Of a stretch of 64,000 nt of DNA, positions 30,171 through 33,336 are shown in pieces. The DNA comes from Moritella marina ATCC 15381 (lineage in GTDB: Bacteria; Pseudomonadota; Gammaproteobacteria; Enterobacterales; Moritellaceae), in the NCBI RefSeq assembly GCF_008931805.1, contig NZ_CP044399.1, positions 2,356,001-2,420,000 of the forward strand, written 5' to 3'. A program made the position numbers and the translations under genes. The notes below the pieces were generated by a model. The model searched no databases, was not told the origin of the DNA, and saw nothing but the letters and a program-made list of their open reading frames with translations. Each line of letters opens with the position of its first letter. Within the stretch, counting starts at the first letter, position 1.

Positions 30171-30692
30171 TTATTTACTCTCAATCGCCAACGGAATTTC
30201 GTCTAACATCATCGTGCCTTTCGTCACGCCATCCGCTAGTTTTAAATATTCTCGGGTAAAAATGGGTCTAAATTTTTCAGCATCCATCGCCATGTAACGA
30301 TTTAATTGACGATACAGCGTATAAACAAAGTTATCCCCTGTCGCAGCACGTTCAGCCGGACTCTTACGTTTAAATTTAAACAAGCGGTCATAAGCTTTAT
30401 CGTGGTCAGAATGACCCATTAATACAATAGACTCGCGCATGATCATATCCGCTACGACAGGTAGACTTGGCGGAAAATCATAAGGTAAGCCATTACTACG
30501 ACGCAATGTTGGTATCTGTTCTGCGACCTTAATAATCGCTTCAGGTGCATATTTGGTAAAAGTCAGTTTCCAGATATTAAATTGTGCCGAATCATAGTCA
30601 TAATTAAATGACGGAAAGCTGCTTGCAAGCATAGTATACATAGTTGCAATCGCTTCTGTTTGTGGCTGAGTTAAATTAATTGTTTGTTCCAT
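30171..30692 (-). CDS. Phage lambda P-like replication protein (DnaB-loader type)
   Basis: About 173 residues, soluble. The first 90 residues follow the pattern of phage replication protein P, which recruits and loads DnaB: a helix ATMYTMLASSFPSFN, an aromatic WKLTFTKYAPEAIIK, then LPYDFPPSLPVVADMI where lambda P has FLPSPGQFVAW. The C-terminal half (HDKAYDRLFKFKRK, LNRYMAMDAEKF) is unlike lambda P. The ATG at 30692 has a GAG-type site; a TTG upstream extends it by five codons. It follows the O-like gene by 23 bp. No other phage gene is nearby, so it may be a domesticated pair. Confidence 0.6.
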   Translation of the reverse strand: MEQTINLTQPQTEAIATMYTMLASSFPSFNYDYDSAQFNIWKLTFTKYAPEAIIKVAEQIPTLRRSNGLPYDFPPSLPVVADMIMRESIVLMGHSDHDKAYDRLFKFKRKSPAERAATGDNFVYTLYRQLNRYMAMDAEKFRPIFTREYLKLADGVTKGTMMLDEIPLAIESK

Positions 30693-30715
30693 ACACTCTA
30701 CGTCCAAGTTTAATG

Positions 30716-32140
30716 TTAATCGTCGTCGCTATCAGAGAAGCCCGGATCAATAAATCGTGGCGGTAATTTTTTCAATGGCGCCGGCGAGTTAGCGTGATCG
30801 CGCACCATAGGATTCACAAAACCACCATTTTGTTCTGTCATACCAACCGTTAACTTACTAATACCCATGTCTGCTAGGGCTTTATTTAAGTTACTGTCTT
30901 TACGACTCGCTTTCGATACATCTTGTTTACCATTCAGTGCTAGTGATATCAAACTATGCACGCTGGTATCATCTTTGAATAATAACCCAAAAGCAAAGTG
31001 CACTGATTGATAATAAGAGTCAACTTGGGCACCATCAATAGCTAACTTGAGATCGGCTTCAGTAAATACCTGCAAACGCAGTATCAAACGATCACGTTGC
31101 TCTGCAGTCATGCGTAAATTAACCCCTACAGCACTTTGTGTTCGTTCAACCCAATAATTAAAGATACGTAGCGCGGGTGAGTCAGCTTGGCTCACTTCCA
31201 TACTATCGGCTAAACTAACCAAGCTTTCGATATTGCCCGAATTAGTAAAGATATCATTAAAATTACGGCCTTTATTGACCAAATCACGGCGGTGATCAAC
31301 ACCATCAACCGCGCGTTTCAACTCAGCAATAGAATGTAGCAGTAATAGGCTATGCAGTTTCTCGAAATGGGCCTGTTTGGGAGCAATATATTGTGATTGT
31401 TGTAAACGTTTAGAACTAAACCAGTAATCATAAACTTGCTTAATATCGGCCATTTTTTGCGGATCTTGCCTAATTTGCTGGTAGTTAGGCATAAAACCAC
31501 TTTGGTTTTGAATATGACGCACACCTTGACGGCTTATCGTTGGCTGAAAAGGCTGGCGAGCTTCAGAATGAGGGTTATTAACCGATTGAATACTCGCAGG
31601 CGCATTAACCCTATTCACAGCCGAAACATCTTTAATATGCTGTAATTCGGTCGCATCTAGCTCGTACCAATCAAAGGCTGGGTTACGGCTGTTAAGCTGA
31701 ATACATAACACCTTAATATGCTCAATTGTAAAACCTTGGCGCATAAACTCATCGCAGCGCACACGGAATTTACTGTTATTAAAGTTTAGTCTTTTTTGTG
31801 AATACTCAGCAACTAAATCAAATACTTGTTGGAAATATTGCAGGCCAGGATCAGCCACTTCAACAGGCGCTGGAAGCTGTTCTTTAAAGTCTTCATACAT
31901 AATGGCACTATTGATGTACAAGCCACTGTCATCTTGTTGAAGATAGTTTTTATTAATCAGTTCAGTAATGCTATGCTGTTTATCTGATTGCAGCGAAAAG
32001 CGTGAAAAATCCGCAATGCGATCTTTATTTTTCTTGCATAACATCCATACTAATAAGCGAAATGCAGCATCAGAAAGTGATGATGATTGCGCGACATGAT
32101 CGGGCACGATAAAGTATGTGCTCTCCATTTTTCTATTCAT
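30716..32140 (-). CDS. O-like replication initiator with two tandem DnaD-like C-terminal modules
   Basis: 474 residues, soluble. The N-terminus (residues 8-85, HVAQSSSLSDAAFRLLVWML, then LINKNYLQQDDSGLYIN) looks like a winged helix. Two similar blocks follow: QVYDYWFSSKRLQQSQ with LKRAVDGVDHRRDL and IFTNSGNIESLVSLAD (about 235-315), and RIFNYWVERTQSAVG with LKLAIDGAQVDSYY and LLFKDDTSVHSLISLA (about 335-415). The YW-(x)n-RL-(x)n-AIDG pattern is known from phage and Gram-positive replication initiators. A weaker third copy may lie at 108-160 (FDLVAEYSQKRLNFN). The tail ends FIDPGFSDSDDD. Function in initiation is inferred. Confidence 0.6.
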   Translation of the reverse strand: MNRKMESTYFIVPDHVAQSSSLSDAAFRLLVWMLCKKNKDRIADFSRFSLQSDKQHSITELINKNYLQQDDSGLYINSAIMYEDFKEQLPAPVEVADPGLQYFQQVFDLVAEYSQKRLNFNNSKFRVRCDEFMRQGFTIEHIKVLCIQLNSRNPAFDWYELDATELQHIKDVSAVNRVNAPASIQSVNNPHSEARQPFQPTISRQGVRHIQNQSGFMPNYQQIRQDPQKMADIKQVYDYWFSSKRLQQSQYIAPKQAHFEKLHSLLLLHSIAELKRAVDGVDHRRDLVNKGRNFNDIFTNSGNIESLVSLADSMEVSQADSPALRIFNYWVERTQSAVGVNLRMTAEQRDRLILRLQVFTEADLKLAIDGAQVDSYYQSVHFAFGLLFKDDTSVHSLISLALNGKQDVSKASRKDSNLNKALADMGISKLTVGMTEQNGGFVNPMVRDHANSPAPLKKLPPRFIDPGFSDSDDD

Positions 32141-32157
32141 AACTGTTTAACACCACA

Positions 32158-33336
32158 ATGCCATATTTAATTACAACTGAGCAATACGCTAACCTAAAGT
32201 CTACCATAGAAGACTTACTTGCACCTTTTGATTCCTTTGCTTTTTCAGACTTTGTTACGGTGAGCCCAATAGCGGCACTAACGGTAAAAAAAGCAGATCA
32301 ACTTGTGACTGCTCAAGGTTATGAAATTACATTAGATCTTTTGGAGCAAAGCGACGAGCGATACATTATCGAAGCGTATTATGATATCACTGATAACAAA
32401 AATATCTATGCGATAAATGAATATGCAGAGCCAATCAATTTATTAAAAAATCCGAGTTTCACGCGTACTTGCAGTATCTGTAATACCACTACAAATCGTA
32501 GCCAAGGGCTGATATTTAGCCACTCACAGCAAGGTGATTTCTGTGCCCATCTCGGTTGTGTAAAAAAGCGTCTGCCGGAGTTAATGCCATTTGCCACATA
32601 TTTACAAAAACTGCCCGCATTAGTTGCACAACTTGAACAATTACAAAACAGTGTATTTAATCAAACGTATGCATCGGGTGCCCCGCTACGTCTTTACTTA
32701 GCCATTGTCGAAGATGAAATTAGCCAACATGGTTTTATCAGTAAACAAGATGCCATTCAATTTCATCATGATTTTAAATATGCTACTTACAGTAAAGCGG
32801 CACAGCGCTATCAAACATCAGCCTACCCTAAATACCTGAGTTTTGAATTTGTTGAGAAAGCCATTTTGTATACTAAACAAATGAGGTCAACCAGCTTAAA
32901 CGACAAATTAAAACAGCTCTGTAATCAAAGTGTCTTAGCTGAAAATGAATTGGCAACGGCCACCTTAATCATCTCTAATTACATCGTAAACAACCAAGGT
33001 TTATTAAGCCACCAATCGCCACTCGCAACTGACAAAAAACTTGCTCTGCATAACGATGGTAGCGATATCAGTGAGACATTACGATTAAAAGGTAAGCTCG
33101 GTGATTATGTACGCTGTCACATTACCGTCAACAGCTGCAAATACCAAGTCATTAACAAGCGTTACGACATTCGTGGAAAAGATGATACCGGCCGTGTGGT
33201 GCAATTTAATCACGGCCAAGCTATGACCGAAAAATCATACATTTATGTCAGTGGTTTTATTTCTAAGTTTTATCAAAATCAATACGGCTATACCATTTCG
33301 GTATTAAAAGGCGTTAAAGCGCTGCATGGTAAATAG
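32158..33336 (+). CDS. Uncharacterised zinc-finger/OB-fold-like protein divergent from the O/P-like pair
   Basis: 392 residues, soluble, family not recognised. A four-cysteine cluster, CSIC about residue 106 and CAHLGC about 27 residues later, is a likely zinc ribbon. A long helical middle follows, and the last 85 residues (LGDYVRCHITV, KYQVINKRYDIRGKDDTGRV, YIYVSGFISKFYQN, GYTISVLKGVKAL) look like an OB-fold, as in single-strand-DNA-binding proteins. The frame is closed upstream by a stop, so 32158 is the earliest ATG. Its start lies only 17 bp from that of the O-like gene, in the opposite direction. A role in DNA metabolism is inferred from this context. Confidence 0.6.
   Translation: MPYLITTEQYANLKSTIEDLLAPFDSFAFSDFVTVSPIAALTVKKADQLVTAQGYEITLDLLEQSDERYIIEAYYDITDNKNIYAINEYAEPINLLKNPSFTRTCSICNTTTNRSQGLIFSHSQQGDFCAHLGCVKKRLPELMPFATYLQKLPALVAQLEQLQNSVFNQTYASGAPLRLYLAIVEDEISQHGFISKQDAIQFHHDFKYATYSKAAQRYQTSAYPKYLSFEFVEKAILYTKQMRSTSLNDKLKQLCNQSVLAENELATATLIISNYIVNNQGLLSHQSPLATDKKLALHNDGSDISETLRLKGKLGDYVRCHITVNSCKYQVINKRYDIRGKDDTGRVVQFNHGQAMTEKSYIYVSGFISKFYQNQYGYTISVLKGVKALHGK

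Follow-up and report, generated by a model that had tools for sequence, protein, structure and literature searches.

The window analysed here (i.e., a stretch of 64,000 nucleotides from Moritella marina ATCC 15381, contig NZ_CP044399.1, positions 2,356,001 to 2,420,000) contains three adjacent genes, referred to as P, O and Z (Table 1). O and Z are divergently oriented with a gap of 17 bp (32141–32157) that is identical across 11/11 Moritella species, and re-reading of the sequence upheld the coordinates and layout of the first-pass annotation, including this spacing. The P ORF as listed encodes 178 aa from a TTG start, and an ATG at 30692 that is common to nearly all orthologues yields the 173-aa protein considered here. 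The earlier proposal that O and P lie in one operon is plausible in the window genome (with a gap of 23 bp), but this gap varies from 23 to 150 bp across Moritella species. A clear Shine-Dalgarno sequence was absent for both O and Z, and the GC content of the triplet resembles that of the rest of the window.

Table 1. Genes, protein segments and conserved DNA of the P, O and Z locus (coordinates are those of the window).
Feature	Coordinates	Strand	Remarks
P	30171-30692	-	Intact; 173-aa lambda-P-type helicase loader homologue
O	30716-32140	-	Intact; 474-aa putative initiator/adaptor outside known families
Z	32158-33336	+	Intact; 392-aa zinc-finger protein outside known families
Possible winged-helix DNA-binding domain, O residues 1-92	31865-32140	-	Helix/hairpin order in low-confidence model
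Helical repeat domain copy 1, O residues 225-315	31196-31468	-	hhalign against copy 2
Helical repeat domain copy 2, O residues 318-408	30917-31189	-	BLASTP match to 253-aa protein of L193
Cys-x2-Cys ... Cys-x4-Cys motif, Z residues 105-134	32470-32559	+	Invariant in 11 species
OB-like C-terminus, Z residues 305-390	33070-33327	+	By eye only
Near-invariant block, 138 bp	32118-32255		First codons of O, 17-bp gap and first 32 codons of Z

With profiles derived from the sequences of 11 Moritella species, each gene of the triplet was detected in 11/11 Moritella genomes, as opposed to 0/384 other genomes of the order. Within the genus, the three genes always occurred together at one fixed chromosomal place; neighbours such as the dgkA, acyltransferase and chemoreceptor genes vary between species, being kept by some and absent or located elsewhere in the rest, while the triplet stays put. 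Moreover, the Moritella orthologues display dN/dS values of 0.04 (P), 0.05 (O) and 0.05 (Z) at a dS of ~1. Taken together, distribution, synteny and selection form the pattern of core chromosomal genes and not that of a mobile element, which disfavours the suggestion made in the first-pass annotation that the genes might serve a small element.

All neighbours that were checked proved to be ordinary chromosomal genes, and none of them encodes a phage structural protein, in agreement with the earlier impression that only housekeeping and envelope genes surround the triplet. Searches by tblastn against phages and a pattern search of viral contigs yielded no close phage relatives of P, O or Z, so that the locus has neither the nearby phage genes nor the relatives in phages that characterize a prophage replication module. 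Plasmids yielded no match for Z and a single chance-level match for O (E=0.5). Neither of two patterns that the first-pass annotation had named as speaking against its proposal was observed: rather than being confined to intact prophages, the triplet was chromosomal and syntenic in 11/11 Moritella genomes, and rather than never being conserved together, its genes always kept each other's company in the gene-neighbourhood comparison within Moritella.

The P protein of the window matched phrog_109 ("P-like helicase loader") over nearly its full length (residues 9–171, E=9e-6, 26.8 bits), as did its orthologues in 11/11 Moritella (best E of 1.5e-6), bearing out the label it had initially been given. 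When the whole window genome was searched with phrog_109, P was the sole gene matched. This family was also the only one reached, with Pfam PF06992 failing to reach P. In an alignment including 23 P-like proteins (lambda P among them), W41 and the FPPSLP stretch of P align with the conserved Trp and PP motif of the family, and hhalign of P to the 23-sequence P alignment returned an E-value of 0.0019 with a probability of 14%. Judged from these sequence comparisons, P is a remote but consistent member of the lambda P family. No AAA+ profile match was found in P, and a search of solved structures with the triplet proteins returned chance matches only. One Moritella genome also carries a truncated second copy of the P 3′ end of ~52 codons (L194:6819-7010; G008 contig 22).

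Known helicase loaders were considered at the level of genomes. The DciA profile (PF05258) matched in 0/11 Moritella genomes versus 120/178 genomes of the order, with the proviso that the weakest matches in the order lie near the threshold and that a diverged DciA could escape it. For DnaC/DnaI, the only PF01695 matches in the window genome were DnaA and ClpB; the best matches in other Moritella genomes were of similar strength (at the profile level, hit-by-hit inspection being confined to the window genome), with the exception of one genome harbouring nine IstB-type copies of IS21-like elements. A DnaT domain was not found in the window genome either. Since DciA, DnaC/DnaI and DnaT were not found, P is the only recognizable loader in the window genome. 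Because the triplet is moreover fixed in the genus, the set probably loads the chromosomal replication helicase.

P-like genes were also seen in other settings. In two small gammaproteobacterial genomes (1.2–1.3 Mb; L049 and L055), a P-like gene lies downstream of one that encodes two DnaT domains, making these candidate resident loader pairs. In three genomes of one genus (L048, L050 and L051), an initiator-like and a P-like gene are located downstream of a glutamate-synthase-like frame as a candidate resident pair; the P-like gene of L050 matches PF06992.

Whether searched whole or in pieces, O had no Pfam, NCBIfam or PHROG match better than E=0.07. PF04492 and the PHROG O-like profile matched neither O nor its pieces (lambda O itself matches many such profiles), and direct comparison of O with lambda O gave noise only. 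The "O-like" initiator of the first-pass annotation is therefore unsupported by sequence, and the name O rests solely on position and architecture. Likewise, hhalign of O and Z against the products encoded near P-like genes in other gammaproteobacteria and in lambda yielded noise. The AlphaFold2 model of O (pLDDT of 43) was too poor for a fold search; its order of helices and hairpins makes a winged helix at the N-terminus possible, and phrog_270 ("replication initiation protein") matched this N-terminal domain at E=0.18 only.

Further downstream in O, the two helical segments listed in Table 1 appear to be copies of one domain (hhalign of one against the other at E=3e-5, with a probability of only 72%). 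The same domain was encountered in Moritella genome G007 (contig 6, L193:5264-7467), where a 481-aa protein matching phrog_775 (E=1.5e-11) is followed in an overlapping frame by a 253-aa protein that matches the second O copy at E=4e-8 (BLASTP) and the first at E=5e-4. The genes around this pair resemble a mobile element. Since the repeat domain is thus also encoded beside a Rep-type protein, O holds a replication-associated domain found elsewhere.

Residues C105, C108, C129 and C134 of Z, together with H131, are invariant in 11/11 Moritella species, so that the Cys4 finger initially noticed in this protein holds and Z can be regarded as a putative zinc-binding protein. The AlphaFold2 model of Z (pLDDT of 40 overall, and below 40 at the OB-like residues 305–390) was too poor for a fold search, and no significant family or PDB match was obtained. 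Weak matches of Z to YafN, SLX1 and others (E of 0.015–0.2) were dismissed as chance.

A feature absent from the first-pass annotation is a block of 138 bp straddling the O and Z starts, in which 137 bases are invariant in 11 Moritella species. The longest comparable run in 2000 column shuffles of the locus was 42, and the longest invariant runs in control loci were 61 (dnaA region, 9 species) and 17 (neighbouring stretch). Synonymous variation amounts to 1/19 in Z codons 1–20 versus ~0.74 beyond codon 34, and synonymous change is lowered as far as ~300 bp out on either side of the block. The block is single-copy in the window genome, and its 23-bp core was absent from viral contigs. A promoter scan found no sigma-70 consensus site in the block, which also contains no iterons, DnaA boxes or GATC and folds as RNA no better than shuffled sequences; iterons were likewise absent from the scanned 32000–32420 stretch. 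An Rfam match in the block was far below the cut-off and was taken as chance. The only hidden overlapping ORFs at the block are frames of 24 and 27 aa, its invariance being uninformative on coding. The 24-codon frame (32133–32207, minus strand) has a stop codon overlapping the O start and might be a leader peptide.

The block is likely the shared divergent control region of O and Z, from which both genes would be transcribed. Because the gap between O and Z is just 17 bp, each promoter must sit inside the coding sequence of the opposite gene, and the simplest reading is a pair of divergently firing promoters whose operators are embedded in the opposite coding sequences. Invariance of this extent at a dS of ~1, its reduced synonymous flanks and the missing sigma-70 consensus would also suit a cis-acting replication or initiator-binding site (cf. 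the lambda ori inside O) instead of overlapping promoters and operators only. Such a role nevertheless seems unlikely to us, given that iterons, DnaA boxes, GATC and an RNA fold are missing from the block, that the narrow gap by itself forces promoters into coding sequence, and that the region upstream of dnaA is likewise the most invariant part of its own locus (45 bp).

With regard to the set as a whole, we consider it probable that P and O load the replicative helicase as a domesticated pair, fixed in the genus, that replaced DciA in the Moritella ancestor. P would then bind DnaB and open its ring in the manner of lambda P, while O would recognize DNA or a DnaA-oriC complex via its N-terminal domain and repeats and bring P-DnaB there. 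Z would be a DNA-binding accessory or regulator, transcribed divergently from the near-invariant region. In this respect, there is good support for the idea of the first-pass annotation that the host employs a domesticated set, since the genes are genus-fixed, syntenic, under strong purifying selection and outside prophages, and the usual loader genes were not found. The fact that P belongs to a phage family, and that the O repeat domain is present in the apparently mobile replication module of G007, could alternatively be explained if P, O and Z derived from an old prophage or integrated element whose replication genes have become fixed and are retained for a task other than chromosome replication, e.g., phage or plasmid interference. 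We deem this quite unlikely, as each of the three genes is preserved intact and in synteny in 11/11 species and evolves there under strong purifying selection, and as neither another loader in the window genome nor close phage relatives were found.

The set might also act in replication restart or repair, with P and O substituting for DnaT/DnaC in putting DnaB back onto stalled forks and with Z as a single-stranded DNA-binding partner, a scenario to which the missing DnaT, the zinc motif of Z and its OB-like look by eye would lend themselves. Restricting the set to this task would nevertheless leave initiation without a recognizable loader, because DciA and DnaC/DnaI were not found, and one loader can do both, as DnaC of E. 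coli serves both initiation and restart loading; we therefore hold a dedicated restart set to be decidedly improbable. A role in DNA repair may still exist, above all for Z. Returning to the domesticated loading set, a more far-reaching and tentative version of it, which we regard as possible though doubtful, is a three-part loading system beyond lambda O/P, with P as the loader, O as an adaptor equipped with a replication accessory domain of plasmid type, Z as a novel replication factor and the 138-bp block as a cis-acting site by which the set governs itself or initiation.

The identity of the DnaB loader is a basic question, and many bacteria have no assigned loader. Here, the searches of a whole marine genus turned up neither standard loader, and a phage-type one is fixed in it, together with two partners outside known families and a near-invariant DNA element. 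The Moritella set makes direct tests possible, i.e., of DnaB loading by P and of the contributions of O, Z and the element.

When compared with known systems, the Moritella set shares with phage lambda the gene order of O followed by P and the family of P (phrog_109). In contrast to lambda, its O lacks a PF04492 match and carries repeats unseen in lambda O, and neither iterons (in the stretch scanned) nor phage genes accompany it. In E. coli, DnaT and DnaC form an accessory and loader gene pair serving DnaB, and a similar pairing is proposed for O and P in DnaB loading; unlike in E. coli, however, the window genome has no DnaT domain and no AAA+ profile matches P. The proposed job is also that of DciA (PF05258), i.e., DnaB loading, although P, O and Z have no match to its profile. 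The Rep-type module of Moritella G007 resembles the set in that its 253-aa protein has the repeat domain of O, but there this protein is paired with a Rep-type protein and no P was seen adjoining.

Finally, the title of Brezellec 2017 (doi 10.1093/gbe/evx111), cited in PMC13326638, announces a third type of helicase matchmaker that arose by domestication of lambda O/P, and the latter paper names DopE as a loader family for bacteria without AAA+ loaders. As in the DopE type, P is a resident non-prophage gene in a genome that, at the profile level, lacks DciA and DnaC/DnaI. Compared with the domesticated lambda O/P as far as that title and the citing sentence describe it, the Moritella set differs in an O that is unrecognizable as lambda O and in its additional divergent gene Z and 138-bp block.
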